A stretch of 64,000 bases of DNA from Pontiella agarivorans (GTDB taxonomy: Bacteria > Verrucomicrobiota > Kiritimatiellia > Kiritimatiellales > Pontiellaceae): the NCBI RefSeq assembly GCF_034531395.1, contig NZ_JARVCO010000002.1, positions 744,001 through 808,000 on the forward strand, in the 5' to 3' direction. Below, piece after piece: positions 1-13,839 of this stretch; position 1 is the first letter of the stretch, and each line of letters begins with the position of its first letter. The notes beneath the pieces were generated by a model that did not search any database, was not told the origin of the DNA, and worked only from the letters and a program-made list of their open reading frames with translations. The translations under genes were made by a program, and so were the position numbers.

Positions 1-1236
1 GTATATATGATTCCTTTCCGGCAGGATTATAAAGGACAACTGCTGTTTTCCGATAACGGCGGCGATACCTGGAATTCAGTTTCCGCTCTGATCAGTTTTC
101 CGGGCGGAAATGACGTGCTTAATTTCCGGTCATTAATGATCGATCATCAGAATTCAGATCAGATCTATTTCTGTATTCCTTTTTCTGAATGGGCCCGCTG
201 GTCGGGTAATTTTGTGAATAACGGGCGCCAGTTCGGTGACGGGTCTGATGCATTCCCGCATGGTATTTATAAATCCACTGACGGCGGCTTGAGTTTCAGC
301 ACAATCACGAACGGTCTTCCGGCCGGTTGCAGCGTCTATCGCATGGCGATGGATCCGGCGGATTCCCAGACGATTTTTGCCGCTTTGAACGAAACGCATA
401 ACGGACTGGCGGGCGGGCTGTATAAAACCACGAATGGCGGAGCAAACTGGCAGTCGGTGGACATTCCTCCCGGCATTCGGAGTGTGAACAATGTGAAATT
501 CCATTCAAACGGAAATATCTATATCGCCTGTGGAGATTATAACGGAACGACCGGCGGCGGATACGTGAGTCAGGATGGCGGGGCAACGTGGCATCTGTTG
601 TTTGATATGCCGTATCTGCGATATTTTGAAGCATCGGAAGCGGATCCCGATGTGGTGGTGGCCTGCGTTCATAAAAACACCTTGGTGGGACAGCGTAATC
701 CCGGAGGATACGTTTCTGTGAATGGCGGGGCAAACTGGTTTAAAATCAACAACCGTCATGGACAGCCGGATGGTATCCGTAAAATTCAGCCGGATCCGCA
801 TGATCCGGATATTCTGTGGATGTGTCTGCATGGTACCGGTTTCTTCCGGGCCGACATCTCCGGCCTGCGCACCGAAACGGCCCCGGAACCGTTATTCTGG
901 GACTGGATGAAAGAACAGGATCAGAAAAGTATGTTTGCAGATTTTGATGCAGATAGTTTTGACAGTCGGGAGGAATACATCATCGGCTCTGATCCAGCGG
1001 ACACCACATCGGCTTTTACCATTGCTTTATCTTCAGGCATTGGAGCACAAAATGGAAGTGAGGTGCTTTTTGAAACCACCGAAAACCGGTTGTATGACAT
1101 TGATGTTTCCGAAGACCTTTTATCGGGCTGGGATGTGTGGAAAGAAAATATTCCAGGGACAGGAAATACCGTGATCATTGAAGACCCAGAAGTGGTGACA
1201 AACCGGTTCTATCGTGTGCGCGTAAAATTGGATTAA
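1..1236 (+). CDS. Secreted Asp-box (BNR) repeat protein, 5' end outside window
   Basis: The frame is open from the window edge, so the N-terminus is missing and the ATG at 7 is probably internal. At least five Asp-box motifs (S/T-x-D/N-G-G-x-x-W/F) are visible, for example SDNGGDTW, STDGGLSF, TTNGGANW, SQDGGATW and SVNGGANW. This indicates a beta-propeller of the sialidase/sortilin/GH74 type. The C-terminus has a calcium-loop-like segment (DFDADSFDSREEY) and then a small beta-sandwich ending in FYRVRVKLD, the kind of tail found on secreted proteins of PVC bacteria. It is probably extracellular and may bind or cut a glycan. No catalytic residues can be assigned, and the enzyme family remains open. 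Confidence 0.7.
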   Translation, partial: VYMIPFRQDYKGQLLFSDNGGDTWNSVSALISFPGGNDVLNFRSLMIDHQNSDQIYFCIPFSEWARWSGNFVNNGRQFGDGSDAFPHGIYKSTDGGLSFSTITNGLPAGCSVYRMAMDPADSQTIFAALNETHNGLAGGLYKTTNGGANWQSVDIPPGIRSVNNVKFHSNGNIYIACGDYNGTTGGGYVSQDGGATWHLLFDMPYLRYFEASEADPDVVVACVHKNTLVGQRNPGGYVSVNGGANWFKINNRHGQPDGIRKIQPDPHDPDILWMCLHGTGFFRADISGLRTETAPEPLFWDWMKEQDQKSMFADFDADSFDSREEYIIGSDPADTTSAFTIALSSGIGAQNGSEVLFETTENRLYDIDVSEDLLSGWDVWKENIPGTGNTVIIEDPEVVTNRFYRVRVKLD

Positions 1237-1312: not shown

Positions 1313-3253
1313 ATGCGAGACAAGAATAAAAAGCTAAAGGTGAATAAGGGCGGGCCAAGTGGTTTTGTTCTCAGTTTACTTATTCATGCGGCAGCTTTTT
1401 CCCTAGCCGGTTTACTGGTTGTTTTCAGTGTTGTTCAGAAAGAGGAAAAGAAATTTGTTCCTCCGAAGCCGGTTGATCGGCCGAAAATGAAGCTGAAGAA
1501 ACCGAAAGTGAAGGTTAAAAAATCGGCCAAGCCGAGATCGACAACCCGTATTGTCACAAAAGTGCAAAAAGCCAGTATGCCGGACATTCAGCTTCCGGAA
1601 ATGAGCGGTATTGGCGACGGACTGGTGGGGGATATTGGCGGATTCGATATCATGCCCAATCTGGCTGATGTTACTATTTTCGGTTCGGGGCAAAGTATCG
1701 GGAATGATTTTGTCGGCACATTTTATGATACAAAGCGGTTTCGCAGTGGGTCTGACAATGCGGGCATAAGCCGAGAAGAAACCATTCAGGCGATCTTGAG
1801 TTTCATGAAAAGAGGGTGGCAGCCGTCTGCCTTCAGTAAATATTATAAATCCCCTAAAAAGCTTTATACCACCACGTTTATGTTTCCTCAGGTACCTGCC
1901 ACGGTGGGCCCCGAGGCCTTCGGCGAAAAAGATATTCCGGGATACGGCTGGATCGCGCACTACAAAGGGCAGTTGGTCTATCCGGAGGACGCCCGTATTC
2001 GTTTCTGGGCACAGGGTGACAACCTGATCTGCGTCCGGGTTGACGGAAAAATTGTGAATCTAGCCTCCTGGCCGGGATGGAACGGAAATAATGAAAATGT
2101 GGAATCCCATTTTTTGAGCCAATGGGATACGCCGGATCCATCAATGAGTCGGCGCTATCCGCTGGGGAATAACTATGCTGTTGTCGGCGACTGGATTGAT
2201 CTCAAGGCGGGCCAGCCTCAGGACATGGAAGTCCTTGTTTCTGAAATGAGCGGAGGGATCACCTGTTTCCTGCTTTGTGTGGAAGTAGAAGGGAAAGAAT
2301 ACGATAAGAATCCATTTGGATTTGGTCCGAAACTTCATGCCTTCAAAACCGAACGACTGAGCCTCGATCTCAAGGAGCAGATCTGGTCCAAGTTGCATGA
2401 AACCGATGCGTTGCTGGAAGGCGGCCCGGTTTTCAATGACATCAATGGGGGCTGGGTCGAGGTGGAAAATTCCGATATTCCAGAGCATCTTCGGTATGAG
2501 AAGATTGAGATTCCGGCAGATGCTGTCGAGCCGACCGTAGCGCCGGAAAGCGGAATACAGGCGTGGTCTCTGAAGAATGGAAAAGTGATCGAAGCCGAAT
2601 ACACTGTAACGATGGGGGATAATGCGGTCTTTAAAAGCATCAAAGGGAAGCAGATCAAGATTCCATTAGGCACACTGTCCGAAGCATCCCTCAGTCAAAT
2701 TCAACTGCTCAGTCCACCCGAATTTACGCTCGATTTTCGGCGTACCACCAAACAGTTGCCAACGGTTGAGGTTACTCCGTATTGGGATGCAGATCCTCTT
2801 CCTCCGGATCAGGAAAATATCTTCGGGGTTAGAGTGAAAAAACGAGGGGCTCTGCAATATGATCACCCGCTGACGATTAAATATTATGCGATTGGCGCCG
2901 AGGTGGATGGGAATAACTGGGTATTGCTCGACCGACAGGAAGAAACCATTATTCCTACACAAATGAAAAATAACGAATTTTCCTTCAGCGGCGCACCGGT
3001 TCGCACTCGGATTATTCCGATCCGGGATGATGGCCGTGCTCCTTTACGCGGTGTTGAATACGGTGGGCACCTGGTGACAGTGACGGATGAGCGGGGTGTG
3101 ATTATTCAGCAGCGTTGCTCGCCGACTTGGCTGATTGATATAAAACCGTATCTTGATGTGCTGCCAATCGGTAAGCATTTCGATAAAATGGGGAATCGAG
3201 TAAGCCCGCCACGACCGAATGATTTTGATCGACCGGAACAGTTCTGGAACTGA
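1313..3253 (+). CDS. Inner-membrane-anchored PA14-like/SHD1 protein, copy 1
   Basis: The protein has about 646 residues. It starts with a short basic segment, one membrane helix (about residues 17-41) and a Lys/Pro-rich stretch (about 45-85) resembling the periplasmic arm of TonB-like proteins. The middle (about 190-330) has a PA14-like pattern (RFWAQGDNLICVRVDGKIV). Residues about 417-467 match an SHD1-type domain (W..KNGKVIEAEY, then KIPLGTLSEASL), common in PVC bacteria. No C-terminal TonB domain is seen. An ATG at 1313 preceded by GGAG (1298-1301) is preferred over the TTG at 1310. It is followed by a paralogue at 3529. It probably sits in the inner membrane facing the periplasm; function unknown. 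Confidence 0.75.
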   Translation: MRDKNKKLKVNKGGPSGFVLSLLIHAAAFSLAGLLVVFSVVQKEEKKFVPPKPVDRPKMKLKKPKVKVKKSAKPRSTTRIVTKVQKASMPDIQLPEMSGIGDGLVGDIGGFDIMPNLADVTIFGSGQSIGNDFVGTFYDTKRFRSGSDNAGISREETIQAILSFMKRGWQPSAFSKYYKSPKKLYTTTFMFPQVPATVGPEAFGEKDIPGYGWIAHYKGQLVYPEDARIRFWAQGDNLICVRVDGKIVNLASWPGWNGNNENVESHFLSQWDTPDPSMSRRYPLGNNYAVVGDWIDLKAGQPQDMEVLVSEMSGGITCFLLCVEVEGKEYDKNPFGFGPKLHAFKTERLSLDLKEQIWSKLHETDALLEGGPVFNDINGGWVEVENSDIPEHLRYEKIEIPADAVEPTVAPESGIQAWSLKNGKVIEAEYTVTMGDNAVFKSIKGKQIKIPLGTLSEASLSQIQLLSPPEFTLDFRRTTKQLPTVEVTPYWDADPLPPDQENIFGVRVKKRGALQYDHPLTIKYYAIGAEVDGNNWVLLDRQEETIIPTQMKNNEFSFSGAPVRTRIIPIRDDGRAPLRGVEYGGHLVTVTDERGVIIQQRCSPTWLIDIKPYLDVLPIGKHFDKMGNRVSPPRPNDFDRPEQFWN

Positions 3254-3528
3254 TGGGGTTTAAGGGTTTAGAACGATAACATAAAGTCCCTGTATATTGC
3301 CGATAAATGAAGCGGGCGAAATGCCGCAGACTAAAGAGGTTTGAGCAATTAGATCGGGCAAATTCGGTTTAGTCAGCTGCGTAATCATATGCAGTATAGC
3401 AAAAAGCGATATATGGAACCTTATTTCAAGGCTCTGTCGACCTTATAAAAGAGCGATTGACAGGTTGAAAAGAATTGAATATTTTCCTTCTAACTGTTTG
3501 TTAATGTACTCACAGAAGAAGGGCGATA
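3254..3528. other. Intergenic gap between tandem paralogues
   Basis: This 275-bp spacer contains no convincing ORF. A weak inverted repeat (GACTAAA near 3339 and TTTAGTC near 3368) is visible. An AAGGG ribosome-binding site lies just before the ATG at 3529. The second paralogue may have its own promoter here, but none stands out. Confidence 0.4.
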
Positions 3529-5439
3529 ATGAAAAAAAACAAGTCGTTGAGGGTAAATAAAGGCGGACCGAGTGGTTTTCTACTCAGTTTGATCATTCAC
3601 GCGGCTGCATTTTCTTTGGCGGGGTTACTGGTTGTCTTTTCTGTTGTGCAGAAAGAGGAAAAAAAGTTTATTCCTCCGAAACCGGTAGATCGCCCGAAAA
3701 TGAAGCTTAAAAAGCCGAAAGTGAAGGTGAAAAAAACCGCGAAGCCGAGGTCAACTACGCGCATTGTGACCAAGGTTCAGAAAGCGAATATGCCCGATAT
3801 TCAACTCCCTGAAATGAGCGGAATGACAGACGGGCTGGCCGGAGAAATTGGCGGATTTGATATTATGCCCGATACGAGCGACCTGTCGATTTTCGGAACC
3901 TCACAGAGCATTGGAAACGATTTCGTCGGTACATTTTATGATACAAAACGTCTGCGAAGCGGAACCGGAAATCCGGGAATCAGTATTGAGGAGACCTGCG
4001 AGGCCATTATTAAATTTGTTAAAAACGACTGGAGATCATCTGTATTGAACAAATATTACCGGTCTCCCAGAAAGTTGTATGCAACGACCTTTACCTTCCC
4101 GACAATGCCGGCGGCAATGGCCCCGGAGGCTTTCGGAGAAGAAGATGTTCCGGGATATGCCTGGTTTGCCCACTACAAAGGGGAGCTGGTTTATCCGGAG
4201 GATATTAAGTTCAGATTCTGGGGGCAGGGCGATAATGCAATGATTGTACGCGTGGATGACGAAATTGTGCTGGTCGTTGCCCATCCTGAAGGCACGCCCT
4301 GGCAGATGACCCTGCCGCTGTGGAACCCTTCTGACCATTCCGTATATCGCAAATATGCCCTGGATAAAAACTTATCAGTTGCCGGAGACTGGATTGAGCT
4401 GAAGGCCGGTCAGCCGGTAAATATGGAGGTTATTGTCGCGGTTCCTTCCGGCGGACTGAACTGTTTCATTCTCTGTGTAGAAGAAGAAGGCAAGGAATAT
4501 CCGGAAAATCCGTTTGATGGAGGCCCGTGTCTGCCGGTCTTTAAAACGGAGGAACTTAGCCAGGATCTGAAAGATGAAATCATTGCCCGGTCGTATGAAG
4601 GCGATTTTGATTTGGATTCAGGGCCGATCTTTCGTGACTATAAAACGTCTAATGACCCCGAACCCTCTTCCGGCAATTTAGCAGATGTCACAGAAGAGGT
4701 GCCGGCACCTGCCCCGGAACCCTCTTCGGAAAGTTATGAAGGATCTCGGGTGTGGACCACCGCGGATGGTAAGACTTTCGAAGGTGACTATGTTGCCGGC
4801 ATCGCCGGTACTGTAACGATAAAACCGGTGAAAGGGCGCAGAAATGTAAAACTGCCTATCAGCAGCCTCTCCGAAGAGGACCGAACCTTTATTGAGCTGA
4901 TGCAGCCGCCGAGGTTCAATATCGATTTTATTGCGAAAACCCGCCGTCTTCCTGCACTTGAGGTAACCCCGTACTGGAATGCGACGATATATGAACCCGA
5001 TGTGAATAATACCTTCGGAGTAAGACTTAAACAGGAGAGCGCTGCGGAATATAACCATCCTCTGACCGTCAAATATTATGCCATCGGAAAGGAAACGGAT
5101 GGAGATAAGCTGGTGATGCTTGACCAGCACGAAGAGGTGTTTTTTCCTTCCGAGCAACCTGACCAGGTGTTCGAGATTCTTGGGGATACCATTAAAACAA
5201 GGGCCTACTCCATTAAACCCGGTGACCGTCCCATCCGGGGAATACGCTACAGTGGAAATTATTTGATCACGGTAACTGATTCCAGAGGGGTGGTTGTGCA
5301 GCATTCAGAATCTCATTCATTCCTCTTCGATGTGCGCCATAAGCTGGATAAACTGGGTCGGCGGCATTACTTCAATGAAAAGGGGGACCGAATCACTCCC
5401 ACCCGACCGAAATTTTCGCAACGGTCGGTTCCTCTTTAG
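3529..5439 (+). CDS. Inner-membrane-anchored PA14-like/SHD1 protein, copy 2
   Basis: This 636-residue paralogue of the preceding gene is nearly identical over the first 110 residues: basic start, membrane helix (about 17-40), Lys/Pro-rich arm, and KVQKANMPDIQLPEMSG. It then diverges while keeping the same order: PA14-like region about 192-315 (FRFWGQGDNAMIVRVDDEIV), SHD1-like domain about 406-457 (WTTADGKTFEGDY, then KLPISSLSEED), and the same C-terminal region. An acidic/Pro-rich linker (about 380-400) is longer than in copy 1. The strong conservation of the anchor against drift in the ectodomain suggests that they share an inner-membrane partner, such as an ExbBD-like complex. That partner is inferred; none is encoded here. 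Confidence 0.75.
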   Translation: MKKNKSLRVNKGGPSGFLLSLIIHAAAFSLAGLLVVFSVVQKEEKKFIPPKPVDRPKMKLKKPKVKVKKTAKPRSTTRIVTKVQKANMPDIQLPEMSGMTDGLAGEIGGFDIMPDTSDLSIFGTSQSIGNDFVGTFYDTKRLRSGTGNPGISIEETCEAIIKFVKNDWRSSVLNKYYRSPRKLYATTFTFPTMPAAMAPEAFGEEDVPGYAWFAHYKGELVYPEDIKFRFWGQGDNAMIVRVDDEIVLVVAHPEGTPWQMTLPLWNPSDHSVYRKYALDKNLSVAGDWIELKAGQPVNMEVIVAVPSGGLNCFILCVEEEGKEYPENPFDGGPCLPVFKTEELSQDLKDEIIARSYEGDFDLDSGPIFRDYKTSNDPEPSSGNLADVTEEVPAPAPEPSSESYEGSRVWTTADGKTFEGDYVAGIAGTVTIKPVKGRRNVKLPISSLSEEDRTFIELMQPPRFNIDFIAKTRRLPALEVTPYWNATIYEPDVNNTFGVRLKQESAAEYNHPLTVKYYAIGKETDGDKLVMLDQHEEVFFPSEQPDQVFEILGDTIKTRAYSIKPGDRPIRGIRYSGNYLITVTDSRGVVVQHSESHSFLFDVRHKLDKLGRRHYFNEKGDRITPTRPKFSQRSVPL

Positions 5440-9159: not shown

Positions 9160-11316
9160 ATGGATAAACTGGACGGTCAGATCGAGCGGGTCGTTTTCCG
9201 GAATGAGGAAAACGGCTTTTGTGTTTTAAGAGTTAAGGTGCGCGGTCACAAAGAGCTGGTCACTGTAACCGGTACCGTGCCGGCGGTGAATCCCGGGGAA
9301 TGGATGGCCGGTGACGGCGAATGGGTTGAGGATCCGCGTCATGGACAGCAGTTCAAGGCGAAACATTTGCGGATGTCAAAACCGGATACCCTTGAGGGTA
9401 TTGAGAAATATCTGGCCTCCGATATGGTGAAGGGTATCGGCAAAGAGTATGCAAAACGTTTGGTGAACGTTTTCGGGCGTGATGTTTTTGATGTGATTGA
9501 AAATGCATCCGGGAAGCTGCTGAAAGTTCCAGGCATTGGAAAACAGCGGAAAGACAACATTAAAAAAGCGTGGGATGAACAGCGTAATGTGCGCCAGATT
9601 ATGTCATTCCTGTTCAGTCACGGCATCAGCACAACGCGGGCGTTCCGGATTCATAAAATCTATGGAGACAAAGCCATTGAGCTGGTGCAGCGGGATCCCT
9701 ACTGTTTGGCGCGCGACATCAAGGGGATTGGTTTTCTGATTGCCGATCAGATTGCCATGAAGCTTGGTATTGCCAAAGATTCCGACCTGCGTGCACGGGC
9801 CGGGCTCGAATTCTGCCTGGGCGAACTTACGGCAAACGGGCATTGTGCTTATGTGCGAAATGATCTGCTTTCGCGTTCGGCGGAACTGCTCGATATTGAT
9901 CTCGATATCATTGATAATGCCCTCGAACATCTGCTCGACAGTAAACGGTTGATCCAGAAGCAGGATATCCGGGGCAGGGATCTGATCTATTTGCCGAAGC
10001 TGTTTTTTGCCGAAATTGAACTGGCCAAAAAACTCCAGGCCTTGGAAAAGGGCCGTCACCCGTGTCCGGATATTGATTTTGAAAAAGCGCTGTCCTGGGT
10101 CCAGCAAAAAAGCGGGATCGAGCTGGCCAACGCACAGCGCAACGCGCTCCGGATGTCGGTGCGGTCGAAAGTAATGGTTATAACCGGCGGCCCCGGCGTG
10201 GGAAAAACGACGCTTGTGAATTCAGTTCTGATGATTCTTAAAGCAAAAAAAATGCGGGTGCAGCTGTGTGCTCCGACAGGCCGGGCTGCAAAACGCATGG
10301 CCGAAACCACAGGCATGGAGGCCAAAACCATTCACCGGATGCTGCAGTTTAATCCGGGAACCGGCGGGTTTATTCATCATTCTGAGAATCCGCTGGAGTG
10401 CGATGTCCTGATTGTGGATGAGTCGAGCATGATTGATGTGGTACTTGCGGCACAGTTGATGGATGCTGTGCCGCTGCACGCCGCCGTGGTGATCGTGGGC
10501 GATGCCGATCAGTTGCCGAGTGTGGGACCCGGGCGGGTGCTGCAGGATATTATCCGCTCAAAAACATTGCCGGTGGCGCATCTTGATGAAGTCTTCCGGC
10601 AGGCCGCCAGCAGCCGGATTGTAACCAATGCGCATTTGATCAATCAGGGGAAAGCCCCGGAATTTCCGGAAGAGGGGGAGCAAAGTGACTGCTATTTTAT
10701 TGAGGCCGAAGAGCCGGAAAAGGCCCTGGGTCTTATCGGGAAGCTGGTGAAACAGAATATCCCGAAAAAGTTTCATTTCGAGCCGATGGATGATATTCAG
10801 ATTCTGACCCCGATGCAGAAGGGCGATCTGGGAGCACGCAACCTGAATGTAACTATGCAGGGACTGCTCAATTCAAGCGGTGACGAAGTCGAACGCTTCG
10901 GCATGATCTATCGCGTGGGGGATAAGGTGATGCAGACGGAAAACGACTACGATAAAGATGTCTACAACGGCGATATCGGTAGGATTACAGCTCTCGACAA
11001 TGAATCTTCTGAACTGGTGGTTGATTTTGAGGGGCGCCGGGTGGTGTACGATTTTCGCGAACTGGATGAACTGGTACTTTCCTATGCCATCACGATTCAT
11101 AAAAGTCAGGGCAGCGAATATCCGTGTGTTGTGATTCCGGTGCATACCCAGCATTTTGTATTGCTGCAGCGAAGCCTGATTTATACGGCACTCACCCGGG
11201 CCAGAAAACTCGTCATTCTGCTCGGCACTAAAAAGGCTCTGGGCTTATCAATTATTCGCGCTGAATCGCGAGACCGTATCACCACATTGGCAGAGCGCCT
11301 GAAAGAGTATGCATAA
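9160..11316 (+). CDS. recD2: RecD2-type ATP-dependent DNA helicase
   Basis: This 718-residue SF1B helicase unwinds DNA 5' to 3' and acts in DNA repair or replication-fork processing, independently of RecBC. It has the RecD2 layout: an OB-like N-terminus, tandem helix-hairpin-helix repeats (about 85-135; VKGIGKEYAKRL, KVPGIGKQRKDN), then the motor. Walker A is GGPGVGKTT (about 341-349), the Walker B region is LIVDESSMID (about 417), and the C-terminal motif is ITIHKSQGSEYP (about 643). Length is normal for the family. It follows the zinc-ribbon gene and ends at a bidirectional terminator. Copy 9527-9541 of the palindromic repeat encodes part of its helix-hairpin-helix. Confidence 0.93.
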   Translation: MDKLDGQIERVVFRNEENGFCVLRVKVRGHKELVTVTGTVPAVNPGEWMAGDGEWVEDPRHGQQFKAKHLRMSKPDTLEGIEKYLASDMVKGIGKEYAKRLVNVFGRDVFDVIENASGKLLKVPGIGKQRKDNIKKAWDEQRNVRQIMSFLFSHGISTTRAFRIHKIYGDKAIELVQRDPYCLARDIKGIGFLIADQIAMKLGIAKDSDLRARAGLEFCLGELTANGHCAYVRNDLLSRSAELLDIDLDIIDNALEHLLDSKRLIQKQDIRGRDLIYLPKLFFAEIELAKKLQALEKGRHPCPDIDFEKALSWVQQKSGIELANAQRNALRMSVRSKVMVITGGPGVGKTTLVNSVLMILKAKKMRVQLCAPTGRAAKRMAETTGMEAKTIHRMLQFNPGTGGFIHHSENPLECDVLIVDESSMIDVVLAAQLMDAVPLHAAVVIVGDADQLPSVGPGRVLQDIIRSKTLPVAHLDEVFRQAASSRIVTNAHLINQGKAPEFPEEGEQSDCYFIEAEEPEKALGLIGKLVKQNIPKKFHFEPMDDIQILTPMQKGDLGARNLNVTMQGLLNSSGDEVERFGMIYRVGDKVMQTENDYDKDVYNGDIGRITALDNESSELVVDFEGRRVVYDFRELDELVLSYAITIHKSQGSEYPCVVIPVHTQHFVLLQRSLIYTALTRARKLVILLGTKKALGLSIIRAESRDRITTLAERLKEYA
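9527..9541. repeat. TTCCARNNNYTGGAA copy inside recD2
   Basis: TTCCAGGCATTGGAA, exact in both arms, lies in the recD2 frame as part of V-P-G-I-G-K. The arms are therefore read in a different codon phase from the F-Q-x-L-E copies elsewhere. Confidence 0.7.
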
Positions 11317-11344
11317 AAAACGCGTCCCGACCGGGACGCGTTTT
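11317..11344. terminator. Bidirectional Rho-independent terminator
   Basis: An 8-bp GC-rich stem, CGCGTCCC (11321-11328) with GGGACGCG (11333-11340) and a 4-nt loop, is flanked by AAAA on one side and TTTT on the other. It can end transcripts of both recD2 (+) and glgP (-), which converge here. Confidence 0.9.
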
Positions 11345-11367
11345 CAAGGTTTGGAGAGGATATACCG

Positions 11368-13839
11368 TCAGGAGATGTCATCAGTCATATCGACCGGTGT
11401 TTTTTTCAGATGCCAGATGTCATCGACATAATCCTGAATGGAACGGTCGGAAGAGAACCAGCCCATGCGTGCAACGTTCAGAATCGCTTTTTCCGCCCAT
11501 TTGGTCGGTTTGGCGTAGAGTTTGTCGACCTCTTCGTTGCATTTGATGTAATCCTCATAGTCGGCGAGATAGTAATAGAAATCGCCGTGCTCCGTAACCT
11601 CGTTATAGAGATCTTTGAACAGATCGGGCTCTGATGGATCAAAGCTGTTATCGCGCAGTGCTTCAAGAACCCCCTGAAGATCTTCCGACTTATCCATATA
11701 AGCCCATGGATTATATCCTTTACGGCCCAGTTCCGCGAGATCTTCTGTCCGATTGCCGAAGATGAAGATATTGTCTTCCCCAACATTCTGTGCAATTTCG
11801 ATATTCGCTCCGTCCCAGGTGCCGACGGTGAGTGCGCCGTTCAGCGACAGTTTCATATTTCCAGTGCCTGATGCTTCAAGTCCGGCCGTGGAAATCTGTT
11901 CTGAGATATCTGCTGCCGGAATGATTTTTTCGGCCAGCGATACATTGTAGTCCGGCAGGAAAACCACCTTCAGGCGGCCGGCCACATCAACATCATTATT
12001 GATCACTTCCGCCATGGTGTTGATCAGCTTGATGACCGACTTGGCGATCAGATAGGCTGGCGCAGCCTTGGCGGCAAAAATGAAGGTTTTCGGTTGAATC
12101 TTGGTCTTCGGGTCCGCCTTGATTTTGTTGTAAAGATGGATGATATGCATGGCTTTCAGCAGCTGACGCTTGTACATATGCAGACGTTTGATCTGCACAT
12201 CGAACACAGAATCAGGACTCACAATATAGCCGGTCAATTCCTTAATGGTCTGGCAGAGTTCGACTTTTTTCTGTCGCTTGATTTCCATGAATTTCTTCTG
12301 AACAGCGCGTTTCGAGGCATAGGCTTCAAAGGCATTCAATTCAGCAAGATCCAGCTTCCAGTCTTCACCGATATTCTCAGAGATCAGTTCGGAAAGTTCC
12401 GGGTTGGCTTTGATCAGCCAGCGACGGTGCGTGATGCCATTAGTCACATTGGTGAATTTGCCCGGATAAACTTTATTGAATTCCGGCATGGTATTGGTTT
12501 TCAGCAGATTGGAATGCAGCGCGGAAACTCCGTTGACTTTATTACTGCCGATTACGCAGAGGTTCGCCATGCGTACCTGTTTGTGCTGTCCCTCTTCGAT
12601 CAGGGAAACCTTACGCATCAGGTCGCCATCACCGGGATGGTTGAGTTCCACTTTCTGCAGGAAGCGGTGATTGATTTCGAAGATGATCTGCATATGGCGC
12701 GGAAGGACCCGCTGCAGCAAATCAACCGTCCATTTTTCAAGCGCTTCAGCCAGCAGGGTGTGGTTGGTGTAGCAGAATGTGCTAACTGTGATGTCCCAGG
12801 CATCATCCCAGGGGATTTGCTCTTCATCGTGCAGCACACGCATCAGCTCAACGATGGCCAGAGTGGGGTGGGTGTCATTGAGCTGAATGACATTTTTTTC
12901 TGCAAATTTACTGTAGTCGCTGTGATTTTTTTTGTAGCGACGGATGATGTCCCGCACGGAACAGGAAGCCAGAAAATATTCCTGAATCAGCCGCAGCTCT
13001 TTTCCTGCGTAGGTGTAATCCGAAGGGTACAGAACTTTTGATACATTTTCCGCCCAGTTTTTTTCTTCAACCGCACGCACATAGTCGCCCTGATTAAAGA
13101 CATCAAGGCGGAAGCCTTCGGCCGGCTGTGATTTCCAGAGACGAAGCATATTTACAGTGTTAACCTGATATCCGATGATGGGAACATCGTAGGGAACGGC
13201 TTCAAAAACCTGGAAGTCTTCCCATACATCCGCCGTTCCCTGACCAGGCCGGAAATTTTTCTTCACGCGGCCATAGACACAGACCGGCAGGGTGTATTCC
13301 GGTCGGATCAGTTCCCAAGGGTAACCGAGAGCCAGCCATTCGTCGGGCCGTTCTTTCTGCCAGCCGTGATCAAACTCCTGACGGAAAATACCGTGTTCAT
13401 AGCGTATACCGTAGCCGTATGCCGGCAATTCTTTAGTGGCCAGCGAATCCAGATAGCAGGCGGCCAGACGGCCGAGCCCGCCATTACCAAGGCCGGCCTC
13501 GACATCAAGAGCAAGAATCTCTTCAGTCGTAATATTAAGGGCCTTGAGCGCCTCGCAGGCAATTTTCTCAATGCCCAGTGCATAGACATTATTAGAAAGC
13601 ATTTTGCCGATCAGGTATTCCATCGACAGATAATTGACGCGCCGCACATCCTGGTCGAGATACTGGCGTTGGGTTGCAATGAAGCCGTCCACAGCCATAT
13701 CGCGCACGGCATGGGAAAAGCACATCATTTTATCGAACGTGGTGGCGGCGCGCAGATCCTTACCCCGGCTGTACTTGAGGTGGAAGAGGGCCCGTTCGGC
13801 GAGTTGTTCAGCGGTCATGTTGTCTTTGAAGTGTGACAT
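11368..13839 (-). CDS. glgP: Glycogen/starch alpha-glucan phosphorylase
   Basis: This 823-residue cytoplasmic GT35 enzyme releases glucose-1-phosphate from alpha-1,4-glucans. Visible family motifs are NYLSMEYLIGKMLSNN near the N-terminus, LGNGGLGRLAACYLDS, and the pyridoxal-phosphate lysine segment EASGTGNMKLSLNGALTVGTWDGAN (lysine near 663; pieces quoted: EASGTGNMK and NGALTVGTWDG). Length matches bacterial phosphorylases. The start MSHFKDNM at 13839 follows GAAGGG; an in-frame extension further upstream is not family-like. The gene is alone and ends at the bidirectional terminator shared with recD2. It points to glycogen storage. Confidence 0.96.
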   Translation of the reverse strand: MSHFKDNMTAEQLAERALFHLKYSRGKDLRAATTFDKMMCFSHAVRDMAVDGFIATQRQYLDQDVRRVNYLSMEYLIGKMLSNNVYALGIEKIACEALKALNITTEEILALDVEAGLGNGGLGRLAACYLDSLATKELPAYGYGIRYEHGIFRQEFDHGWQKERPDEWLALGYPWELIRPEYTLPVCVYGRVKKNFRPGQGTADVWEDFQVFEAVPYDVPIIGYQVNTVNMLRLWKSQPAEGFRLDVFNQGDYVRAVEEKNWAENVSKVLYPSDYTYAGKELRLIQEYFLASCSVRDIIRRYKKNHSDYSKFAEKNVIQLNDTHPTLAIVELMRVLHDEEQIPWDDAWDITVSTFCYTNHTLLAEALEKWTVDLLQRVLPRHMQIIFEINHRFLQKVELNHPGDGDLMRKVSLIEEGQHKQVRMANLCVIGSNKVNGVSALHSNLLKTNTMPEFNKVYPGKFTNVTNGITHRRWLIKANPELSELISENIGEDWKLDLAELNAFEAYASKRAVQKKFMEIKRQKKVELCQTIKELTGYIVSPDSVFDVQIKRLHMYKRQLLKAMHIIHLYNKIKADPKTKIQPKTFIFAAKAAPAYLIAKSVIKLINTMAEVINNDVDVAGRLKVVFLPDYNVSLAEKIIPAADISEQISTAGLEASGTGNMKLSLNGALTVGTWDGANIEIAQNVGEDNIFIFGNRTEDLAELGRKGYNPWAYMDKSEDLQGVLEALRDNSFDPSEPDLFKDLYNEVTEHGDFYYYLADYEDYIKCNEEVDKLYAKPTKWAEKAILNVARMGWFSSDRSIQDYVDDIWHLKKTPVDMTDDIS

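Follow-up and report, generated by a model that had tools for sequence, protein, structure and literature searches.

Why should two neighbouring genes keep the first 110 residues of their proteins almost unchanged while the remainder drifts apart? The question is raised by two adjacent open reading frames (ORFs), located at positions 1313-3253 and 3529-5439 of a 64,000-nucleotide stretch of contig NZ_JARVCO010000002.1, positions 744001-808000 (the window), both of which are present in the sequence and start with ATG. Their products combine an N-terminal 'anchor' (a transmembrane helix, a Lys/Pro-rich arm and a linker) with a head made of PA14-like, SHD1 and C-terminal beta domains. The closest named relatives of these proteins are in Kiritimatiellales and Pontiellaceae, and the host genome is 4.4 Mb. 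Here we argue, from sequence comparison and structure prediction, that they are probably inner-membrane force transducers of the TonB/TolA type, carrying a new PA14-SHD1 ectodomain and served by a dedicated proton motor. Force transduction of this type is suggested by the topology, a Ser-x3-His motif in the helix, the arm and the operon in which relatives encode the anchor.

The original prediction had described a near-identical N-terminus of about 110 residues ahead of diverged PA14 and SHD1 regions, and the alignment of the two proteins bears this out. Amino acid identity is 89% over residues 1-110, 58% over the PA14-like domain (126-372) and 40% over the C-terminal part (404-636). Third-base identity at four-fold sites, on the other hand, is 0.37 in the anchor, 0.24 in the PA14-like domain and 0.32 in the C-part. 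The same holds for 11 paralogues of the host genome, in which the anchor has an amino acid identity of 0.84 and a four-fold identity of 0.385, compared to 0.355 expected from codon usage alone. That is, the synonymous sites of the anchor are saturated while its protein sequence is kept, which points to purifying selection on the protein, neither chance nor recent gene conversion.

Wider sampling gives the same contrast. Among 56 proteins from many genomes, mean pairwise identity is 0.67 in the transmembrane helix and 0.74 in the arm, compared to 0.46 in PA14, 0.39 in SHD1 and 0.37 in the C-domain, so the ectodomain is the faster-evolving part. Anchors also track their host genome, as would be expected of a part that docks on one shared complex, and ectodomains do not. 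For 73 proteins of 11 genomes, anchors from one genome share an identity of 0.85 and those from different genomes 0.71 (z 23 when labels are shuffled); the loci were retrieved by anchor patterns, which favours conserved anchors but cannot alone create likeness within genomes. In the same proteins, the PA14 parts show 0.46 within and 0.45 between genomes and the C-halves 0.39 and 0.37. The head subfamilies thus appear older than the species, with the anchors following the species. Taken with the saturated synonymous sites of the window genome, the simplest reading of this within-genome likeness is that the motor is a common partner to which every anchor in the cell adapts.

Homogeneous anchors within genomes could also arise if the anchor were merely a membrane tether, made near-identical by gene conversion among paralogues, and a 99% direct repeat of 300 bp flanking one copy indicates that DNA does move. 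We consider this very improbable. Gene conversion is largely refuted by the saturated four-fold sites, both in the window pair and among the paralogues, and a simple tether would leave the ExbBD operon and the invariant His (both described below) unexplained.

The transmembrane helix carries the first half of the signature of TonB and TolA: S20 is present in 55 of 56 relatives and H24 in all 56. We checked whether this helix might be a cleaved signal peptide, as the original prediction had cautioned. No signal-peptidase site is conserved, and the -3 position of the sole candidate is Leu, Phe or Met in 46 of 56 proteins; we therefore rejected cleavage, since a small residue at -3 is not conserved. 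The statement that these proteins lack a C-terminal TonB domain also holds. There is no TonB_C match in the window proteins, which rules out ordinary TonB, and the three TonB_C proteins of the host genome are all encoded elsewhere.

What might the anchor dock on? In the Kiritimatiellales loci L163, L116 and L139, the anchor gene immediately follows a TPR-X-ExbB-ExbD-ExbD operon; the gap from the second ExbD is 2 bp in L163, and L116 has two tandem anchors. The same gene order is found in genomes G392, G398, G413, G390 and G079. Overall, ExbB is followed on its own strand by an anchor, at a distance of 857-1144 bp, in 12 operons from 11 related genomes (six of them were read gene by gene, with L184 and L186 on the same contigs as L163 and L116, plus L171). 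In other families, more distant PA14 anchors are found at this position too (L176, L181). Together with Ser-x3-His, this arrangement supports the earlier proposal that the N-terminus docks on one inner-membrane energy complex, and it supports ExbB/ExbD as the predicted partner of the anchor.

The host genome encodes a TPR-X-ExbB-ExbD-ExbD motor of its own at C12:818.7-824.7 kb (L036:12755-18700), with ExbB/ExbD at C12:823.0-824.7 kb. The ExbB of this motor shares 75-82% of its residues with the L116 and L163 proteins, which makes the motor the ortholog of the anchor-carrying one; in the same comparison the ExbB of a second host motor, linked to a vWA-headed protein (L035), reaches 51-57%, and the two host ExbB proteins are 55% identical to each other. 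No anchor gene follows the second ExbD of the C12:818.7-824.7 kb operon, the next gene being trpA by sequence. In G226 (L190), a third ExbD takes the anchor's place in the motor operon.

The composition of this motor also bears on another possibility, namely that the motor and its PA14-SHD1 arms substitute for Tol-Pal and tether or constrict the outer membrane as the cell grows and divides, glycans playing no part. The TPR partner scores 107 bits against the NCBIfam model of YbgF/CpoB-type repeats, for which the cut-off is 90, the motor ExbB is nearest to TolQ (yet under the TolQ cut-off), and some genomes have a single copy located in the motor operon. However, up to 23 anchors per genome and fast head divergence are ill-suited to one constitutive task, the heads are SHD1 and PA14, and several relatives with nearly complete genomes lack the system (G003, G029, G127, G414). 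On balance, we regard a Tol-Pal substitute as unlikely.

The structure prediction proposed for the ectodomain recovered both expected folds. An AlphaFold model of the gene 2 protein, built from 56 sequences (mean predicted local distance difference test score, pLDDT, 82), consists of the transmembrane helix, a low-confidence arm up to residue 114 and then a confident PA14-like domain, SHD1 and beta domain. The PA14-like domain matches the PA14 sugar-binding domain of an RTX adhesin (6m8m; Z 11.7, root-mean-square deviation (rmsd) 3.2, 159 residues aligned), followed by yeast flocculin and Epa lectins, and the SHD1 domain matches that of Sla1 (2hbp; Z 8.3, rmsd 1.6, 57 aligned), with a sequence profile E of 0.00026. 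By Pfam, PA14 stays below significance (1/8 members, E 0.11) and SHD1 is detected in 4/8 members (best 5.5e-8). The models thus support PA14 and SHD1 folds in the head.

The C-terminal beta domain, modelled alone, gave no fold match clear of the rest. Its top Foldseek match, Amuc_1102 (MUL2A; E 8e-4), is a weak lead only: a second aligner scores it at Z 6.6 and rmsd 7.2, level with unrelated rows, and a sequence comparison of the two gave no match. Akkermansia-like genomes (L166-L169, L180) encode 1-5 membrane-anchored proteins with the same PA14-type head and a transmembrane helix that lacks the conserved His. We rejected a tie to the Akkermansia mucin loci because of this missing His and because the likeness to Amuc_1102 is not distinct with the second aligner.

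PA14 heads often bind sugars, and a sulfatase-like neighbour is present within 6 kb of 30/89 anchor loci across genomes. From the fold and these neighbourhoods, a glycan ligand is plausible for the head, and variation between heads might then reflect variation between ligands.

Several observations weigh against the motor-driven reading or call for care in its use. In the window genome, the anchor genes are dispersed and far from the motor. The SHLS motif of TonB/TolA is only half kept, the canonical Leu and second Ser positions being A31 and V35. In the head, the Asp-Asp pair of PA14 is kept in just 25/56 proteins and replaced by Asp-Asn in 8/56, including both window genes (the site was assigned by sequence only), so that Ca-dependent sugar binding is not assured. 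Among 43 genomes from the order, 30 have both the motor type and the anchor, 9 lack both and 2 + 2 are discordant (Fisher p 4.8e-6), but the 60% ExbB identity threshold for motor type was set after the values had been seen, and related genomes are not independent observations. Likewise, 10/11 host anchor loci are within 20 kb of a sulfatase compared to 42% expected at random (p 0.001), a moderate enrichment for which cut-offs were picked afterwards and two contig sizes approximated.

With these points in mind, motor-driven force transduction can be laid out as follows. The side of the transmembrane helix that bears Ser-x3-His would be the docking surface for a proton motor of the TolQR/ExbBD kind, dedicated to these proteins. 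Two distinct ExbD proteins would form part of that motor, and its operon also encodes a TPR protein and the small periplasmic protein X. The Lys/Pro arm would span the periplasm, and the PA14-SHD1-C-domain head would engage a partner in the outer membrane or close to it, where proton flow may be converted to pulling or remodelling. Anchor conservation, anchor genes within the operon of relatives, a host motor with no anchor gene and the predicted PA14 and SHD1 folds are read from the sequences; we infer the physical docking, the force transduction, the outer-membrane partner and the glycan ligand from the evidence above. The ancestral anchor may have been the sixth gene of the motor operon, later copied in the window lineage to dispersed sites that share one motor. 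Sharing would hold the anchor constant and let the heads diverge, most likely toward different glycans or surface proteins that handle glycans. Many heads on one motor would be expected to give this pattern, in which anchors are alike within genomes and heads are not.

The genome-wide count of paralogues gives the scale of this dispersal. The host genome has 12 copies (8 fused genes and 4 split pairs), plus three vWA-headed proteins with a related anchor, and relatives have up to 23. In split pairs, an anchor-PA14 ORF of ~370 aa comes first and a second ORF, of ~245 aa, carries SHD1. The N-terminus of this second ORF reads by eye as an ordinary signal peptide, which would place the head in the periplasm. 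The SHD1 half is directly downstream in 11/12 examined split loci of other Kiritimatiellales (15/16 with the host's four). Fusion in some copies and adjacency in others suggest that the two halves work together. The 300-bp repeat mentioned above (L028:8135-8434 and 11102-11401) flanks a PA14-SHD1 gene, its copies being within a sigma-factor-like gene and a partial copy of that gene, and is a possible footprint of copy dispersal.

If motor-driven transduction is correct, what could it be for? The host genome encodes about 148 sulfatases yet four Plug proteins (TonB-dependent receptors), none of them near the window genes, which raises the question of how large sulfated glycans are handled across the outer membrane. 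One candidate for that task would be an arm powered by the motor and fitted with exchangeable PA14 heads, which would also extend the newly found class of non-TonB force transducers. More tentatively, Kiritimatiellota might have an alternative to the TonB-receptor strategy, in which a single dedicated motor powers at least a dozen lectin-type arms that are interchangeable, each acting on a different polysaccharide-handling outer-membrane assembly. The proposal offers precise genetic targets: H24 of every arm and the one motor operon, C12:818.7-824.7 kb.

Features of the two window genes (window coordinates)
Feature	Position	Strand	Basis
Gene 1: fused anchor, PA14-like, SHD1 and C-terminal beta domain, 646 aa	1313..3253	+	ORF; 56% identical to gene 2
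Gene 1 transmembrane helix with Ser-x3-His	1364..1435	+	Sequence alignment
Gene 1 Lys/Pro-rich arm	1457..1570	+	Alignment; disorder predicted in gene 2 model
Gene 1 PA14-like domain	1691..2446	+	Alignment to gene 2, whose model matches PA14 folds
Gene 1 SHD1-like region	2546..2710	+	Alignment to gene 2
Gene 1 C-terminal beta domain	2720..3250	+	Alignment
Gene 2: fused anchor, PA14-like, SHD1 and C-terminal beta domain, 636 aa	3529..5439	+	ORF
Gene 2 transmembrane helix with S20 and H24 of the TonB/TolA Ser-x3-His	3577..3648	+	Best hydrophobic 19-mer, residues 18-36
Gene 2 Lys/Pro arm, 15 K/R and 6 P in 38 residues	3670..3783	+	Composition; pLDDT mostly <60
Gene 2 predicted PA14-fold domain, residues 126-372	3904..4644	+	AlphaFold pLDDT mostly >90; match to 6m8m
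Gene 2 predicted SHD1 domain, residues 404-458	4738..4902	+	Fold match to Sla1 SHD1 2hbp; profile E 0.00026
Gene 2 C-terminal beta domain, residues 462-636	4912..5436	+	Modelled alone, pLDDT 93

Upstream of the pair, window positions 1-1236 encode the last part of a large, secreted sortilin/BNR-repeat protein, the C-terminal tail of which recurs on giant proteins beside other anchor copies. As a general link between anchors and giant secreted neighbours, this tail is weak (10/81 upstream neighbours); PEP-CTERM is found in 4 of 81. Such neighbours would fit a motor that moves or displays adhesins, as in AglRQS-Glt or GldLM. The AglRQS-Glt gliding motor of Myxococcus has one TolQ-like and two TolR-like proteins along with TPR partners, a layout (AglR-AglQ-AglS) that one ExbB and two different ExbD proteins resemble. 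A gliding-like role has also been suggested for the vWA class by its authors (PMC12204202). Yet no Glt or Gld homologues were seen alongside, none having been searched for, and motility was not observed in the related Pontiella agarivorans (PMC10880615). A drive for adventurous gliding or surface adhesins therefore strikes us as doubtful, and we return to force transducers of the TonB/TolA type for comparison with known systems.

TonB and TolA share with the PA14 anchors the topology, Ser-x3-His, the Lys/Pro-rich arm and, judging by the operon, an ExbBD/TolQR partner; the PA14 anchors differ in lacking TonB_C, in keeping half of SHLS and in having no linked TonB-dependent receptor. Gene order offers a further parallel. 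In Fibrobacter succinogenes, FSU_2396-2403 include OmpA, TPR, ExbB, ExbD, ExbD and a TonB-family protein, numbered consecutively and raised on cellulose (PMC6851124). In that species PA14 is on separate fibro-slime proteins, and the likeness is one of gene order.

The nearest counterparts are the vWA-headed force transducers of the same bacterial group, described in the Tichowtungia family of PVC (Planctomycetes-Verrucomicrobia-Chlamydiae) bacteria, which occupy the same operon slot and were predicted to dock via a conserved His (Mol Biol Evol 2025, PMC12204202). The main text of that work does not mention PA14 or SHD1, and we found no earlier description of PA14/SHD1 with ExbB in this group in the open-access literature. 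The host genome has a vWA-headed anchor as the last gene of its second motor operon (C12:699-706 kb, L035:4059-10866) and two more that are dispersed (L033, L034). The motor of that second operon is at C12:702.8-704.5 kb. In relatives, a vWA anchor is near a PA14 anchor on the same strand in nine loci, and at L178:609-13709 a vWA-like ORF forms a tandem array with two PA14 anchors, beside type II secretion pseudopilus-like genes. Both classes have a transmembrane helix with Ser-x3-His, a Lys/Pro linker and no TonB_C, and both use the slot after TPR-tolQ-tolR-tolR (for PA14 anchors, in relatives only). The PA14 anchors differ by a PA14-SHD1-beta head (assigned by fold) in place of vWA, by the other motor type (ExbB 75-82% vs 51-57%) and by their 1-23 copies, mostly dispersed. 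Our best reading is that PA14-SHD1 is a new head class of these recently recognised motor-driven transducers, sister to the vWA class, and one that is unusual for its expansion to a dozen copies or more that appear to share one motor.

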